Virus record (IMG/VR): IMGVR_UViG_3300009104_000098
Span: 1-27,750 of that record
DNA from: a virus
Length of the DNA stretch: 27,750 nucleotides
Strand: one strand, 5' to 3'
Shown: piece after piece, positions 9,296-21,315 of the stretch
Position numbering within the stretch: the first letter of the stretch is position 1
Layout: every line of letters starts with the position of its first letter
Notes under the pieces: generated by a model
Seen by the model: only the letters and a program-made list of their open reading frames with translations
Databases searched by the model: none
What the model was told of the DNA's origin: nothing
Program-made: the position numbers and the translations under genes

Positions 9296-9320
9296 CTTTT
9301 CTCCTAATTATTGCTAGAAC

Positions 9321-9347
9321 TAGGGGCAATATAAAATTAAACCCCTA
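9321..9347 (-). promoter_or_regulatory. Inverted repeat upstream of integrase
   Basis: TAGGGG and CCCCTA face each other across a 15-base AT-rich loop, 26 bases before the integrase start. In an otherwise AT-rich gap it could be a leader hairpin controlling integrase expression or an integrase binding site. The sequence alone cannot decide. Confidence 0.35.
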
Positions 9348-9405
9348 ATTCTCAAATGAGTCATTCCTAAACGCGCAAACATTTTCTTCTTGACTCATGT
9401 TGTTT

Positions 9406-9477: not shown

Positions 9478-9662
9478 TTATTCTTTGCGTATCTGTTTTT
9501 TAAAAACTCAACTTGATCTTCTAACTCTTTAACTCTGCGTCTGAGCGATCTTGCCATTTGTGACCAATATTGTATTTGTGAGTCTTTTGAAGCATCACTA
9601 GACTGCTTGCTTCTACCCCAGGCTTTGAGCGTATCGTAAGGCTCTTTTTTCCAATCAATCAT
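9474..9662 (-). CDS. Small basic coiled-coil protein, unknown
   Basis: 62 residues, overlapping the methyltransferase stop by four bases (ATGA), so it is translated with it. The first half is polar (MIDWKKEPYDTLKAWGRSKQ) and the last 25 residues (SLRRRVKELEDQVEFLKNRY) form a clear basic leucine-zipper-like heptad helix. It may be a small DNA-binding or partner protein of the methyltransferase, but that is inference from coupling only. Confidence 0.65.
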   Translation of the reverse strand: MIDWKKEPYDTLKAWGRSKQSSDASKDSQIQYWSQMARSLRRRVKELEDQVEFLKNRYAKNK

Positions 9663-10642
9663 TCAAACAAACCCTCTTGCACATTCTTCTGCACAGCTTC
9701 CAATCTGGCGCTAGCAATATCAAAATACTCTCGCTCCATTTCAATTCCTATAAACCTAAACCCTTCCAGTAATGCACCTTTGCCTGTGCTGCCACTACCC
9801 ATAAAAGGATCAAGAATGACGCCAGCCTTCGGTGTGACTAGGCGACACAGATACTGCATTAATTTTGTTGGCTTGACTGTTGGGTGTATGTTTTGAAACT
9901 TGTTTAATCCCTCATGTCTATCTTTTTTACCTGCTTTCGCACAATAGAAGTAGCGAGATTTATCACCGAATACATCTTGCACCACATCAGAACCATCGTG
10001 CATGACATTGGCTGGAAATCTGCCTTGTTCATCACCAACCCGACAACTATCTATGTTTATCCCACCAGTACCATGTTCTAAGACATTCTCTGCCACACTA
10101 CCGTTGAATGGTTTCCTAGCCATAACAATCGGCTCATGTGCTGGTTTGAGTGCTGTACCCCAACCTTCGTATTCTGATGTGCCTTTTGTTTCTGTATTAT
10201 TGCCTCTGTATGCTCCATAAATATGATCATTTTTTCCAGTTCGTTTTACAACACGAACCACCTCTCTCTCATTCCCTTGCAATTTATCCACCGCCTTCCC
10301 TATGTTGTGCGACTTGGGAAAGCCACTGCCATAAAGCCACATCAACTGATCTCGTATCTCAAACCCAGCATCTTCGATGGGGATAACCCCACGATGATAA
10401 GTGCGTGAGCCAAAAAATGATAGAAGATGCCCGCCTTGCTTAATGGATTGATATACCTTTTCCCACAACTCTTTCTGTGGCACATCATAATCCCATTGCT
10501 TACTCATGAACGACAATCCATAAGGCGGATCGGTTATTACTGCATCGACATCATTGATTGCTGACAGTAATTCATTGCTATCACCACAATAAAGAGTTGC
10601 ATAACCGATAGTTCTTGAATGTTTTTGTAGATCAATCATCAT
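9659..10642 (-). CDS. Beta-class DNA methyltransferase (amino-methyltransferase)
   Basis: 327 residues from the first of two adjacent ATGs (10642 or 10639); a longer TTG-started frame to 10726 would overlap the upstream gene heavily and is rejected. Motif IV DPPYG is at residues 38-42 and motif I DPFMGSGSTG at about 278-287, so the order is IV before I, the beta class, which makes N6-methyladenine or N4-methylcytosine. A target-recognition region of about 170 residues lies between, including GSGFPKSHNIGKAVDKL, a stretch shared by many orphan phage methyltransferases. No restriction partner lies beside it. Likely roles are protection from host restriction or marking of phage DNA. The target site cannot be read from the sequence. 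Confidence 0.92.
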   Translation of the reverse strand: MMIDLQKHSRTIGYATLYCGDSNELLSAINDVDAVITDPPYGLSFMSKQWDYDVPQKELWEKVYQSIKQGGHLLSFFGSRTYHRGVIPIEDAGFEIRDQLMWLYGSGFPKSHNIGKAVDKLQGNEREVVRVVKRTGKNDHIYGAYRGNNTETKGTSEYEGWGTALKPAHEPIVMARKPFNGSVAENVLEHGTGGINIDSCRVGDEQGRFPANVMHDGSDVVQDVFGDKSRYFYCAKAGKKDRHEGLNKFQNIHPTVKPTKLMQYLCRLVTPKAGVILDPFMGSGSTGKGALLEGFRFIGIEMEREYFDIASARLEAVQKNVQEGLFE

Positions 10643-10883
10643 CGTTATAAAGCACAATTTGTCCGTTCTTTTCGTCTTTATCAACAAGATCGCAATGAGC
10701 GAAAAGATGCTGAAGTCTTTTATCAACTGCGCCTAGACCTATGCTCATGTGATTTGCTAGTTGAACGCGAGTTGGTGTGTGACCATTCTCTGCGGCAAAC
10801 GCTTTGATCGCTTCATAAGTTTCTGTCATGTTTTTCTGTCTGTTGTATGCAACTTTTCCGACATATTTTTTAGTCAAGTCCAT
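10632..10883 (-). CDS. Winged-helix DNA-binding protein (LexA N-terminal-like)
   Basis: 83 residues with GAGAGGAAA before the ATG. TETYEAIKAFAAENGHTPTRVQLANHMSIGLGAVDKRLQHLFAHCDLVD follows the helix, turn, helix and wing order of the LexA DNA-binding domain, with no protease domain attached. It overlaps the exonuclease gene before it by 14 bases and the methyltransferase after it. It could be a phage regulator, for example a Cro- or repressor-like factor for the lysogeny arm. Confidence 0.75.
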   Translation of the reverse strand: MDLTKKYVGKVAYNRQKNMTETYEAIKAFAAENGHTPTRVQLANHMSIGLGAVDKRLQHLFAHCDLVDKDEKNGQIVLYNDDD

Positions 10884-11829
10884 GTGTTTCCTCTCTAATT
10901 AAAAGTGTTTTTGATCGAACTGTATAAGCATCTTTAGCAGGCACAAGTTTTTCAGGTTGTGCTTTGTAAGTGCGACTGCCCCATGTTGCTCTGTGTGTGC
11001 CGCATAAAGCGTGTTTACTGTTTTGCATTTGAGATTTTATGACTGCTTCGTGTTCTTGAATTGTTTGTTGTGCGTTCTTGATAAGACTCTTTGCATGTAA
11101 GATCTCTGAGAAATGATGCTCAAGATCATCTTCAAGCTCAACAGTGTCGTCTCGATCTTCAGGATAAACAATATTAAAATCTAATGAATTTTCAGCATCG
11201 TAATAGTCTTTCTCTTCAATGCGTCTATTGAAGTCGTTAATCGCAAACTCAAAGTCTTTAACCCAGTTCTCGTCTCTTTCAAACACAAAGATTTTAAGAT
11301 GCACACTTTGATAAAGAACGACTACAGCGCCCCATGTTAGATTTGCACACTCCATGTTTGCGAGAACTTGATCTTTGCCACGCCATGCTGGCAATACATC
11401 TTCAGGAAATGCGCTCGTAACTTTGCACTCTAAGATGCCATCTCCTTTTAGATGTAAGACTTCATCGTTAACTGTATAAATACACTTGTCGTAATCTGTT
11501 CTCACTGTAAGCGCTTTTTCAATGCCTGCACATGCAATTCCGTCAGGGCTTCCTTGTATTTGTAGTCGCGAATGAATTAAAGGTTTGTCAATATTCAATC
11601 TAATGTTTGTCAGATTAAGTCTTAGACACGCTTCGTCAAGCACTGTATTTTCAAGCACATCACCCATTCTCATAATTGAAGGTTGTTCATCAAGTCTGAT
11701 ATTTTCACCAGCACACGCTCTAATTTTTTCATCGAGAATCTCGTTTCTCGTTTTGTATGGGTGTTTGCCTAATATCGCGGGAACACCACTAGATGATGGT
11801 TTCTTGTCGTCTGTTACTTTACCGACCAT
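10870..11829 (-). CDS. YqaJ-type PD-(D/E)XK exonuclease
   Basis: 319 residues from the ATG at 11829, which has a GGAG site seven to eight bases upstream; the ATG at 11850 lacks one. The fold of the lambda-exonuclease/YqaJ family is shown by an early acidic helix (MGDVLENTVLDEA, E60), IQGSPDGI (D96), GILECKVTSA (E134, K136) and KDQVLANMECA (Q154 in the usual Q-x-x-x-x-x-M place). The C-terminal third is a coiled coil (HFSEILHAKSLIKNAQQTIQEHEAVIKSQM). Such enzymes degrade 5' ends of double-stranded DNA to start single-strand annealing recombination. I see no RecT/Erf annealing partner in the window. Confidence 0.85.
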   Translation of the reverse strand: MVGKVTDDKKPSSSGVPAILGKHPYKTRNEILDEKIRACAGENIRLDEQPSIMRMGDVLENTVLDEACLRLNLTNIRLNIDKPLIHSRLQIQGSPDGIACAGIEKALTVRTDYDKCIYTVNDEVLHLKGDGILECKVTSAFPEDVLPAWRGKDQVLANMECANLTWGAVVVLYQSVHLKIFVFERDENWVKDFEFAINDFNRRIEEKDYYDAENSLDFNIVYPEDRDDTVELEDDLEHHFSEILHAKSLIKNAQQTIQEHEAVIKSQMQNSKHALCGTHRATWGSRTYKAQPEKLVPAKDAYTVRSKTLLIREETHGLD

Positions 11830-12064
11830 TTCTAATTCTCCAACCTGCATGTCGCGTAAGCATTTTCTGTATCTCGTAAGGTGTCACAGTGACTTTAAAA
11901 ACGCCTTGTGTTGTTTCTATCTTTGATGCTGAATCTGAGCGATCTGCATAATAAGAATAGATACTGTCTTTTCTGACAGTGACTGTGTTTCCTTCTATGT
12001 GTTCGTTTTCGTCTGCAAAAAGATTGAACGTGACGTATTCGTTAGATCGTTGATTATACTGCAT
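11819..12064 (-). CDS. Hypothetical small beta-rich protein
   Basis: 81 residues with one of the best ribosome sites here (AAAAGGAGA). The body (NEYVTFNLFADENEHIEGNTVTVRKDSIYSYYAD and TTQGVFKVTVTPYEIQKML) looks like a small beta barrel followed by a helix, vaguely like the FlbD type. No function can be assigned. It overlaps the exonuclease start by 11 bases. Confidence 0.7.
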   Translation of the reverse strand: MQYNQRSNEYVTFNLFADENEHIEGNTVTVRKDSIYSYYADRSDSASKIETTQGVFKVTVTPYEIQKMLTRHAGWRIRNGR

Positions 12065-12705: not shown

Positions 12706-13449
12706 TCAAGAGTTTTTTTTATTTTCTTTAATTTCTTTAATGCTTTTCAGCAAATTACTTACTGTTGACGCGTGCCAGCTAGACTTATCAGGACTATATC
12801 GCGTCTCAATCTCGCGCATATTAAGCGCTTTCGCGATTTCTGTGAGCGATGTTGCACCATAGCGCTGTATCTCTTCAACAACAGGTCGCATCTTCACAGC
12901 AAATTCTAATCGTTTAAGCGTGTGCGATTTGACTGCGTACTCAGTTAGTTTTTTGATGTCTTTTGAGCCGAGTTTTATGCCCTTCTCTTTTAGCTTTGCA
13001 AGCGCGTATTTTGTGTTGCGAGACACTTCTGCTCGATGTTCATTGCTGATTGCAACAAGCACACTTGCGTCAATCGCTCGCACACTTTGATAACACACAT
13101 AGAACTTAACTGAATGATTCTCGCTCGCGTCATAAACGAGATCGATAAACTTGAGATTCTTCATGCGTGTACCGATACGATTAAGAACGATGTCTGCTTT
13201 GTTGCGTATTGCGTGTTTAATCGCTTTCTCAAACTCAGGCATCTTATAAGGGTTACTATGATGCAACTCAACGTAATGTTTCTTTTTCATGTGCATGTGT
13301 GAACCGACACCTAAATAATCTTCGATCTCTGCGCGTTGCTTTTTAATGAGCTTTCTTCGCTCAGTTAATGAAAGTTCGCTCTCATGCTTATTCAGACGAA
13401 TGAGTGTGACAATTTTGCCATGCGTTTGTGAACGCTTTTTGCGTTTCAT
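12706..13449 (-). CDS. Serine-recombinase-family protein lacking the catalytic serine
   Basis: 247 residues, led by AGGAGAACGAAATG. The protein follows the resolvase/invertase family end to end: an N-terminal nucleotide-fold strand (GKIVTLIRLN), a Q/R-rich helix, IVLNRIGTRMKNLKFIDLV, AIDASVLVAISNEHRAEVSRNTKYALAKLKEKGIKLG, then a C-terminal helix-turn-helix ATSLTEIAKALNMREIETRYSPDKSSWHASTVSNLLKSI. In active enzymes the first strand ends Y-x-R-V-S-T-x-x-Q, with Ser as nucleophile. Here it reads IRLNKHES, with Asn20 at the Ser position. It is therefore probably inactive as a recombinase and may bind DNA as a regulator or recombination directionality factor. A different nucleophile such as Ser24 cannot be excluded. 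Confidence 0.8.
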   Translation of the reverse strand: MKRKKRSQTHGKIVTLIRLNKHESELSLTERRKLIKKQRAEIEDYLGVGSHMHMKKKHYVELHHSNPYKMPEFEKAIKHAIRNKADIVLNRIGTRMKNLKFIDLVYDASENHSVKFYVCYQSVRAIDASVLVAISNEHRAEVSRNTKYALAKLKEKGIKLGSKDIKKLTEYAVKSHTLKRLEFAVKMRPVVEEIQRYGATSLTEIAKALNMREIETRYSPDKSSWHASTVSNLLKSIKEIKENKKNS

Positions 13450-13462
13450 TTCGTTCTCCTGA

Positions 13463-13762
13463 TTAATGTTTAATTTCTAGCCTAAGCTCTCTTGGAGTAA
13501 TTATTTGATTTGTCTTTGCTGAATGAAGCAAATCTCCAAAAAAGACGTAAGGATTACCACGCTTAACATAAAAGGAATCAGTAGCTTGCAAATCTTCTAT
13601 TGGAACTTCCCAAAGTTCAGGATTGTTGCAACTCCTTTCATCTTCAAACATCAGCACAGTAGCATATACCCTCTTAACTTCTAAGATTTTGCATGGCACA
13701 TTTACCACTATCTTTGAGTCAGGTTCGTTGTAAAAGGCATAGTCATTTTCTTCTATTTTCAT
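13463..13762 (-). CDS. Hypothetical protein
   Basis: 99 residues with the strong site AAAGGAGAATAAA before the ATG, one base after the stop of the zinc-ribbon gene. The predicted structure is beta-rich in the first half (KIVVNVPCKILEVKRVYATVLMFEDE), like a small SH3-type barrel, then mixed. Two cysteines are present but no zinc motif. No function is recognised. It is co-transcribed with its neighbours. Confidence 0.7.
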   Translation of the reverse strand: MKIEENDYAFYNEPDSKIVVNVPCKILEVKRVYATVLMFEDERSCNNPELWEVPIEDLQATDSFYVKRGNPYVFFGDLLHSAKTNQIITPRELRLEIKH

Positions 13763-13763
13763 T

Positions 13764-14246
13764 TTATTCTCCTTTATTTTGGTATTTTTTCATTAATTTT
13801 CCTTGTTGAGTTAGCTTAGATTGATACTCAACAGCTACTTGTTTCAACGCTCTGAAAGCGTCTTTTGTTGAATTACCTTGATCGTCTTGTGGGTAACGCT
13901 GAAAGGTTTTGTTTTTGCTAACTTGATGCGTCATATATTTAGTACTAATGAGCAATTCATCTTTGCTTTGTTCTTTAATCTCAACAATTTTTGTCCAATA
14001 ATATGTTGAACTATGATCGTAAGGATTATAATTTTCTTGCCAGATAGAATCACCGACTTTTAAATCAGAGCTTTTAGTTTCTAGTAAACTGTTAAAATAA
14101 TCGTTTGCCGCTTTGCCTTTTTTTGTGAGCTTAGTGCCTTTTCCGCCACACCCAAAGCAAACTGTTCCATCTTTTGGGTTATAACTATAATGCCCGCTTC
14201 CGCCACATCTGCCGCAATTTTTTCGTTCAAACTGATACTCGCTCAT
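13764..14246 (-). CDS. DnaJ-type zinc-ribbon protein
   Basis: 160 residues and first gene of the leftward operon, with AGGAGAACGAAATG as ribosome site. Residues 11-37 contain CGRCGGSG and CFGCGGKG, that is two C-x-x-C-G-G-x-G knuckles like those of the DnaJ central domain and of zinc-ribbon proteins, likely binding one zinc ion. The rest (KVGDSIWQENYNPYDHSSTYYWTKIVEI) is a beta-rich region with no known domain, and the C-terminal end is a charged helix. There is no J domain, so it is not a full DnaJ. It may be an adaptor or nucleic-acid-binding protein. Confidence 0.7.
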   Translation of the reverse strand: MSEYQFERKNCGRCGGSGHYSYNPKDGTVCFGCGGKGTKLTKKGKAANDYFNSLLETKSSDLKVGDSIWQENYNPYDHSSTYYWTKIVEIKEQSKDELLISTKYMTHQVSKNKTFQRYPQDDQGNSTKDAFRALKQVAVEYQSKLTQQGKLMKKYQNKGE

Positions 14247-14283
14247 TTCGTTCTCCTGTTAAAAATTAATATATCTACTATTA

Positions 14284-14311
14284 ATAATACACGACTGTTA
14301 TCTGTATACAA
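14284..14311 (-). promoter_or_regulatory. Leftward promoter of the lysogeny/recombination operon
   Basis: On the minus strand TTGTAT and TATTAT are separated by 16 bases, close to a sigma-70 promoter, and point at the zinc-ribbon gene starting at 14246, giving a leader of about 30 bases. Strength cannot be measured from sequence. Confidence 0.5.
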
Positions 14312-14320
14312 CTATTATTT

Positions 14321-14342
14321 ATCTCTTTATCATCTCTTTATC
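14321..14342. repeat. Tandem 11-bp repeat in divergent control region
   Basis: ATCTCTTTATC occurs twice back to back, followed by a partial third copy (ATCTAT). It lies just upstream of the leftward promoter and could be an operator bound by one of the nearby regulators. Confidence 0.55.
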
Positions 14343-14379
14343 ATCTATATTCAAATTGCAATATATATAAAAATATATT

Positions 14380-14419
14380 TAATATTGACACATTACTAAT
14401 ATTAAACGTCTGTTTATAT
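14380..14419 (+). promoter_or_regulatory. Possible rightward promoter with repeated TAATATT operator
   Basis: TAATATT occurs at 14380-14386 and 14397-14403, flanking a TTGACA box at 14385-14390. A possible extended -10 (TG-T-TTATAT) ends at 14419, but its distance from TTGACA (23 bases) is too long for a standard promoter. The paired short AT-rich elements suit a ribbon-helix-helix operator. Confidence 0.35.
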
Positions 14420-14450
14420 GTTTAAGTTCTTGAAGAAAAATAGGAGACAA

Positions 14451-14612
14451 ATGCCAACAAAAGAAAAGAAAAAAGCATTGTGGGTCGATCAAGAATTACA
14501 CAGCGAAATAACTGCTCTAGCTGATTTCAAGCAAATGAAAATCAAAGACTTAGTGAGCAACATTTTAAAAAAAGCAGTTAGAGAAGAAATAGAACGTGGC
14601 GAGTTCAAGTAG
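14451..14612 (+). CDS. Ribbon-helix-helix regulator
   Basis: 53 residues from the ATG at 14451, preceded by TAGGAG; an ATG at 14418 gives 64 residues but has no ribosome site and would overlap a possible -10 box. KKKALWVDQELHSEITALADFKQMKIKDLVSNILKKAVREEIERG has the strand, helix, turn, helix order of Arc/MetJ/CopG proteins. It sits first in the rightward arm directly next to AT-rich repeats, so autoregulation and control of the divergent promoters is likely. It may be the switch factor, as no CI-like repressor is visible. Confidence 0.7.
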   Translation: MPTKEKKKALWVDQELHSEITALADFKQMKIKDLVSNILKKAVREEIERGEFK

Positions 14613-15036: not shown

Positions 15037-15212
15037 GCAAACAAGAAAAGAAAAAATCGTTTAATGACTTTCTCGATTTCGTGAAGTGGATGCACGAAAA
15101 CTACAAGAATCATTGCGAAGCAAACAAGAAGAAAGCGCTCAGTTATGACGAATATATCAACGAGCGTTTTCAACAACTCTGTGACGAGTTCAACGATAGG
15201 GTGATTCACTAA
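15033..15212 (+). CDS. Small charged protein between nuclease and methyltransferase
   Basis: 59 residues: MSKQEKKKSFNDFLDFVKWM and then a charged helical stretch to RFQQLCDEFNDRVIH. Its start overlaps the nuclease stop (ATGA) and its stop overlaps the methyltransferase start (TAATG), so all three are translationally coupled. No family is recognised. Confidence 0.7.
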   Translation: MSKQEKKKSFNDFLDFVKWMHENYKNHCEANKKKALSYDEYINERFQQLCDEFNDRVIH

Positions 15213-16342
15213 TGAACGAGAACGCAACAGAGAGCAGAGAAATGTTTTTGTTTGACGAGATCATCAAGCGAGAGACAAAGATTGATACTAAAGATATTGA
15301 GATTGCTCCTGACTTTCCTGTTATTAGATGCAAAGAGAATGACGCGATTGCAGACTTTCATCGTTTAAAAACAAACTCATTTGTTGATCTCATACAAAAA
15401 GGCGAATGGCAAAGCAGAAGCGAAATTGATGAGCAATATGTTTCAGAATATCTCATTAAGAGAAATCTGATCGGACTAAGATCTTCAGACTTTCATCACT
15501 GGCAAGCAAGAATGTCTTGCGAAGCTGATCGTTTTTCAAGCCCTGTAAGAAGTTGGTACGACAATAAAATAAGAAAGACAATCGAAACATCAGGTTTCTG
15601 GGAAGAAAACAAACGCTCTGCTCTAGCAATGAGAAAGTATATTGCGAGTCAGTTTCGACCTAGCTCTGCGAAAGCGTTATACGAGCTGTTCGATGCAAAA
15701 CGTATTTATGACCCTTGCGGTGGTTGGGGCGACAGAATGACAGCCGCAATGGCGAGCGACATAGAGTTCTACTATTGCAGAGATGTTAACCCACTCGTCT
15801 TTGCAGGCTACACTCTGCAACAACAATACTATCAAACAGACGTTGAAATCGCATACGAGTTTAAAGGCAGTGAGATTGATTGTCCTAATGAAGATTTTTT
15901 CGACTTAGTTTTTACTTCACCGCCTTATTATAAAGTTGAGCGCTATCAGTCATCTAACAGCGACACTATGCAATCACACGATAAGTTTGACGAGTTTAAC
16001 GACTGGCTTCAAGGCTATCTCTTTCAAATGATAACTCACGCTTATCGCTCATTAAAAGAAGGCGGTTATCTAGCAATCAACATAAGCGATTGTTATGCAA
16101 ATTCTGTGAGCAACAAGATTGTTATGCCTATGATTGAGTTTATACAAGAGAGCTTCGATGATGCTCACTTCGTAGCAGTCATCGGCTACGAAATGGCATC
16201 TCGCGTCAACAAACACAATGATGATATTTCTGCTGAGCCGATCACTATATTTAGAAAAGCAAAGAGTAAAGACTTTGCTGAATTAATACCACGAGACAGA
16301 CAAGTGAGCTTGTTTGATGATTACGAAGAAGAACATTTATAA
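15212..16342 (+). CDS. DNA methyltransferase with SPPY motif
   Basis: 376 residues. Motif I-like DPCGGWGDRM is at 167-176, a DVNP acidic loop at 191-194, and motif IV TSPPYY at 235-240. A following segment (LKEGGYLAINISDCYANS) is the usual motif V-VI strand. SPPY is most frequent in N4-cytosine methyltransferases, while some N6-adenine enzymes also use it. The first ~160 residues are a distinct N-terminal region that could hold target recognition (motif I precedes motif IV, unlike the other methyltransferase of this phage). The neighbouring nuclease suggests a restriction-type pair, or an independent epigenetic mark. Confidence 0.88.
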   Translation: MNENATESREMFLFDEIIKRETKIDTKDIEIAPDFPVIRCKENDAIADFHRLKTNSFVDLIQKGEWQSRSEIDEQYVSEYLIKRNLIGLRSSDFHHWQARMSCEADRFSSPVRSWYDNKIRKTIETSGFWEENKRSALAMRKYIASQFRPSSAKALYELFDAKRIYDPCGGWGDRMTAAMASDIEFYYCRDVNPLVFAGYTLQQQYYQTDVEIAYEFKGSEIDCPNEDFFDLVFTSPPYYKVERYQSSNSDTMQSHDKFDEFNDWLQGYLFQMITHAYRSLKEGGYLAINISDCYANSVSNKIVMPMIEFIQESFDDAHFVAVIGYEMASRVNKHNDDISAEPITIFRKAKSKDFAELIPRDRQVSLFDDYEEEHL

Positions 16343-20796: not shown

Positions 20797-21315
20797 ATGG
20801 CAGAAAAGACTAAAAAGAACCCAAAAGGCGCAGGAAGAAAGCGAATAAAATTCAATGACGAAGAATTAAAAGAAGTTTCGCGAATGGCAGGTCTTGGCAT
20901 TTCAGAGTCTAAGATCGCTGAATCCTTTGGGATTTCGCTTTCTACTATAGCTAGACGAAAGCGTGATTCTAAGAAATTTGACACAGCATTAAAGAAAGGC
21001 AAGACAAAAGCGATAGATGAAGTCGCTTCTGCTCTCTTCGATTCTGCGACAGGTAGAGCTGGCAAAGATCCTAACGTGACTGCTCAAGTGTTTTTCTTGA
21101 AAAACCGAGACCATGAGAACTGGAAAGACAGAGTTCATGAAACTGTCGAGCATGAGATCAGCTTGAACAAAGTTTTACAGAACGCACAAAAACGCATTAT
21201 TAATTTAGACTCTGCTTCGACTGATAGAGTTGAGATCGCTCGAAACACTAATAAACAAAGCAATAGTCAACTTCTCTCTAAGAAGCTGACAGAAAAAGAT
21301 GTTGATAATTCATAG
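20797..21315 (+). CDS. terS: Terminase small subunit
   Basis: 172 residues. A basic N-terminus is followed by a helix-turn-helix (ELKEVSRMAGLGISESKIAESFGISLSTIARRKR), then a helical oligomerisation region ending NVTAQVFFLKNRDHENWKDR, a motif widespread among small terminases. It binds the packaging site and hands DNA to the large subunit. The large subunit is separated from it by a glycosyltransferase gene, which is unusual. Confidence 0.82.
   Translation: MAEKTKKNPKGAGRKRIKFNDEELKEVSRMAGLGISESKIAESFGISLSTIARRKRDSKKFDTALKKGKTKAIDEVASALFDSATGRAGKDPNVTAQVFFLKNRDHENWKDRVHETVEHEISLNKVLQNAQKRIINLDSASTDRVEIARNTNKQSNSQLLSKKLTEKDVDNS

Follow-up and report, generated by a model that had tools for sequence, protein, structure and literature searches.

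The gene at 12706–13449 encodes a protein that is, by descent as read from its sequence, a very divergent small serine recombinase; the best explanation, to which a probability of roughly 55% is given, is that this catalysis-free recombinase has been kept as a sequence-specific DNA-binding protein, most likely one that controls transcription of the early/recombination operon or of neighbouring genes. The protein is probably a dimeric, non-catalytic DNA-binding regulator or architectural protein, with transcription control ranked first and integrase architecture second. The window analysed, a linear virus record of 27,750 bases, holds genes for tail fibre and internal virion proteins, a leftward block (14246–7667), a rightward block that starts at 14451 and carries replication genes, and then terminase and portal. 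The portal protein matches those of Sinorhizobium phage phiM5 (40%) and Pelagibacter phage HTVC106P (34%), both of which have their capsid genes after the portal, whereas none were identified in the 27,750-base window; the record is therefore taken as an incomplete phage genome, from which a missing repressor cannot be inferred. The phages are probably marine, as read from the similarity to HTVC106P and from the sample numbers. The features discussed are collected in Table 1.

Table 1. Positions of the dead recombinase gene, its altered and retained parts, and associated features in the 27,750-base window.
Feature	Position	Strand	Basis
Dead small serine recombinase (by homology), 247 aa (P0001)	12706..13449	-	ORF translation, homology, AF2 fold
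Codon 18 (Arg), R8, sole active-site residue kept	13396..13398	-	Alignment, relatives
Codon 20, AAT (Asn), at the catalytic Ser10 position	13390..13392	-	Alignment, relatives
Codon 70 (Met), replacing R45	13240..13242	-	Alignment
Codons 93–97, GTRMK replacing DRLSR (D67, R68, R71)	13159..13173	-	Alignment
E-helix, residues 128–155, with H138 (for E124) and N145 (for SxRT Arg)	12985..13068	-	Alignment, AF2
C-terminal helix-turn-helix region, residues 198–236, retained	12742..12858	-	Alignment, AF2
Tyrosine integrase, PF00589	8201..9295	-	R-K-H-R-H-Y catalytic residues present by sequence reading
LexA-like wHTH protein	10632..10883	-	Weak PF01726, weak phrog_3502; 82–87% conserved in relatives
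RecE-like exonuclease	10870..11850	-	phrog_434
Divergent intergenic region	14247..14450	.	Strongly conserved; candidate control region
Ribbon-helix-helix (Arc-like) protein	14451..14612	+	Corrected start

The open reading frame (13449–12706, minus strand) is real and translates to the 247 aa described in the original prediction, and its assignment there as a serine-recombinase homologue is unambiguous in comparison with real relatives: hhalign against intact relatives gives a probability of 99.6 and an E-value of 1.5e-23 over residues 10–240, and the nearest intact relative by BLASTP is L140 from Pseudoxanthomonas, at 29% identity and E 1.5e-25. Standard libraries nearly miss the protein; PF00239 (Resolvase) gives no match at E <= 10, PF07508 reaches E 0.0054 at the C-terminus, which is below the Pfam cut-off, and PHROG 125 ‘DNA invertase’ is matched at E 1.4e-5. 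Relatives were therefore fetched for comparison, the search probe being a constructed consensus and the retrieved relatives real sequences; the set comprises 163 active-site-intact relatives, of which 160 are of the type resembling the C-terminus and three are phage proteins. PF00239 is matched by 87 of the 92 sequences in the folding alignment, and the intact relatives there also number 87; as P0001 itself has no match, the five members of the window clade are not among these 87. PDB sequence searches with the 247-aa protein returned noise only, tblastn in phage records gave nothing useful, and genome contigs scanned with patterns of the close family gave no match. Searches of 398 genomes from one phylum gave no relative at E <= 1e-25, and 385 genomes from one class gave no relative of the integrase at E <= 1e-40. 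The phAPEC8-like Escherichia phages encode a related small serine recombinase (L031:1483-2154) that has the catalytic Ser and is in most cases listed as a hypothetical protein.

Alignment supports the loss of the whole cutting centre and the retention of the DNA-binding end. The profile alignment sets R18-L-N20-K on R8-V-S10-T of the resolvase relatives and so places Asn20 at the nucleophile, as had been claimed. Besides the serine (S10 to N20), six positions that are invariant or almost invariant in relatives are lost: R45 to M70, D67 to G93, R68 to T94, R71 to K97, E124 to H138 and the SxRT Arg to N145. Ser is present at the nucleophile column in all intact relatives covering that column, a value of 100% that is partly due to selection because N-terminal motif patterns were used in fetching some of them; further viral relatives, fetched by other patterns, agree on Ser except for L210, the start of which is out of register. 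Among 210 relatives, 27 columns reach 95% invariance or more; of these the protein keeps 3 of the 20 that lie up to residue 135 and all 7 of those from residue 146 onward, where the end of the E-helix, the linker and the helix-turn-helix (HTH) lie (hypergeometric probability about 1e-4); likewise, the HTH region is 33–53% identical to nine near intact relatives, and the catalytic part 19–28%. The family order and C-terminal HTH noted originally are both found, with residues 10–240 aligned, the HTH retained and the predicted fold in agreement.

Structure modelling, proposed as a check on the original prediction, gives a resolvase-type order of strands and helices when AlphaFold2 is supplied with 92 diverse sequences (pLDDT 83.6); a model from five near-identical sequences had a pLDDT of 40 and was discarded. 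The retained model features an unbroken E-helix (128–155) and a C-terminal HTH, and Asn20 directly follows strand 1. Serine integrases, Sin resolvase and viral serine recombinases appear near the top of structure searches, at low TM-scores and, for PDB, weak E-values. The best viral Foldseek match is BFVD A0A516KVC1, a 238 aa viral protein (37% identity over 244 columns, E 1.4e-18) which is closer to the window protein than are the intact relatives compared.

The gene is carried by six IMG/VR contigs at 82–94% identity, one copy being truncated; every close contig spanning this locus has it, and its early-operon location is conserved. In the search for the same change in related phages, AAT was the Asn codon of the window and of each relative that covers this position, five in all (L001, L002, L003, L004 and L006; the proteins of L002 and L003 do not differ, and L005 starts downstream of the codon), which removes sequencing error as the source of Asn20. 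The open frame has the same length in every relative with a complete gene. Between the window and three relatives the dN/dS of the recombinase gene is 0.07–0.11, compared with 0.07–0.09 for the helicase, about 0.10 for terminase and portal, and 0.14–0.15 for the tyrosine integrase; both halves of the gene are constrained, and among pairs of relatives the ratio is 0.12–0.26, highest for the closest pair. A dN/dS of 0.07–0.11 argues against a decaying gene, and the data, which come from one clade of six contigs plus the window, support maintenance under purifying selection without catalysis, the catalytic loss being judged by homology.

The genomic setting differs in part from that first described. 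The recombinase gene does not head the leftward operon but is its third gene, behind 13764–14246 and 13463–13762; and although no CI-like repressor was said to be visible, a LexA-like wHTH gene is present. The tyrosine integrase looks normal, as stated, with its PF00589 match and the catalytic residues read in its sequence. The interpretation drawn at the time, a domesticated DNA-binding protein, stands as to lost catalysis (by homology), retained DNA-binding part and selection, and fails as to position at the operon head. The most likely start of the ribbon-helix-helix protein is 14451 rather than 14418, as there it matches its relatives. Flanking genes on both sides vary between contigs while the recombinase gene persists. 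The two genes before it (13463–14246) occupy a variable slot beside a highly conserved gene; tblastn gave no counterpart of either in the contigs of the relatives, where other ORFs take their place. Two relatives have an ORF that overlaps the dead recombinase gene at its end (L019:3859-4410, minus strand; L027:4646-5326, plus strand); neither ORF matches Pfam or PHROG, and both are missing from the window and from the L001 contig. Two N6/N4-type DNA methyltransferase genes (9659–10726 and 15212–16342) are absent from the contigs of close relatives, and the putative small terminase (20797–21315) matches the resolvase helix-turn-helix family HTH_7 of Pfam at E 4e-6.

The window clade is fully supported on a stem branch of 3.4–4.3 changes per site with very short branches within, a shape that points to much change followed by conservation; because the stem is so long, DNA binding itself could also have changed. 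The data would allow the clade to group with the phage recombinases L204-L237 and L060 (AU p 0.53). The L204-L237 group has S10, R45, D67, R68 and R71 intact, which the window protein lacks, while both have N at the SxRT arginine; the HTH region of these intact recombinases (L204-L237/L060) is up to 53% identical to that of the window protein, and a search of the contigs that carry them found no tyrosine integrase. In the four contigs inspected (L208, L240, L216 and L060) the intact recombinase lies ahead of ERF-like and LexA-like proteins, with family scans, run for L208 and L060 only, giving ERF and phrog_3502. The order in the window is comparable: recombinase, RecE-like nuclease and the weak phrog_3502 match at 10632–10883. 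The intact recombinases occupy an early-operon slot similar to that in the window, together with a recombination protein and a LexA-like protein.

As a regulator, the protein would form the family dimer, or possibly a tetramer, through its catalytic fold and E-helix; the C-terminal HTH, by analogy with Tn3 resolvase, would bind a DNA element resembling a recombination site with two half-sites. Once bound, the protein would occupy or bend the DNA without cutting it, most likely so as to govern transcription of the early/recombination operon or of genes nearby, much as Tn3 resolvase does at res. The divergent region 14247–14450, which is likely the main early control region of the phage, has a mean column identity of 84% across five contigs and contains the short repeats ATCATC and CGWCTGTT; no clear palindrome was found within it, and a promoter scan gave no more matches than chance. 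In the relatives, as in the window, other ORFs separate the recombinase gene from this region. The motif ACGWCTGTTW, chosen post hoc, has 18 matches against 7 expected (1 of 100 shuffles), scattered across the window. No palindrome or operator shared for the recombinase was found in the regions compared, namely the divergent region and that before the integrase. A CI-like lysogeny repressor gene would be expected to head a transcript that faces the lytic promoter and to have operators, whereas this gene is third in the leftward block and operators were not found.

A possible but clearly less favoured explanation is that the protein acts as an architectural or directionality factor for the tyrosine integrase, binding near the attachment site and bending or bridging DNA so as to steer integration or excision. 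The window and the five contigs of relatives that span both genes carry dead recombinase and tyrosine integrase together; the integrase is found in 0 of the 14 nearest intact-recombinase contigs, in 7 of 32 others and in both dead-recombinase contigs searched likewise. This co-occurrence is a hint only, since it concerns one lineage and many of the contigs are fragments. An architectural precedent exists in Tn3 resolvase, in the dimers that it forms at accessory sites II and III (PMC9943657). Against a steering role, the recombinase gene is more conserved than the integrase gene, and the stretch ahead of the integrase shows neither conservation nor a shared repeat. An inverted repeat, AGAACTAGGGG-N15-CCCCTAATTCT, lies directly ahead of the integrase gene (9316–9352) and was not found in the aligned relatives. 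The narrower proposal that the dead recombinase is a dedicated non-catalytic partner of the integrase, the job of the recombinase’s active ancestor having passed to the tyrosine enzyme, is considered somewhat less likely again; if true, a dead partner shaping DNA for a tyrosine integrase would represent functional coupling of two unrelated recombinase superfamilies.

It is improbable that the protein inhibits an active serine recombinase, be it from the host or from a competing element, by joining it in mixed oligomers. The fold and the end of the E-helix, by which the family assembles, are kept; however, identity to any of the intact relatives compared is only 20–30%, the stem branch is very long, and no partner gene was found in the window. 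Continued activity as a recombinase or nuclease through another residue is considered very improbable: Ser24 lies four residues after Asn20, and LNRIGTR locally resembles LDRLSR, so that a shifted alignment would supply Arg91 and Arg95, but gapless profile alignments give G93, T94 and K97, strand 3 of the model ends at residue 89 in keeping with the gapless register, and R45 and E124 are lost in both registers; the shift was rejected on the profile alignment and AF2 model. A decaying pseudogene, which would account for the lost active site and the very long stem branch, is scarcely credible given the same-length open frame, the Asn codon in all five covering relatives and the dN/dS of 0.07–0.11 against the window.

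Serine recombinases are known as enzymes and sometimes also as regulators; a lineage that has lost its active site yet is conserved as tightly as the replicative helicase would be a case in which nature has separated DNA binding from cutting. It would also show that environmental phages carry pseudo-recombinases unseen by Pfam-based annotation. A limited search of open-access literature found no described case of a comparable dead-recombinase lineage; a BREX paper checked for its wording concerns other proteins.

Among known systems, the closest in architecture are the small ‘recombinase family protein’ or DNA-invertase-type serine recombinases with a C-terminal HTH, found mostly in proteobacteria and phages (PHROG 125; PF00239 plus part of PF07508 or PF20552). 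The window protein shares their domain order, E-helix, linker and HTH and can be aligned with them over its full length; unlike them, it has only R8 of the catalytic residues, a 7-residue insertion after the first motif and no PF00239 match. For function, the precedent of a serine recombinase that regulates transcription, with architectural dimers that do not cut, is the Tn3/gamma-delta resolvase TnpR at res: bound there, Tn3 resolvase autoregulates tnpR and tnpA (PMC7157771), and it forms the architectural dimers at the accessory sites mentioned above (PMC9943657). TnpR is an active enzyme, whereas for the window protein we only infer regulation.
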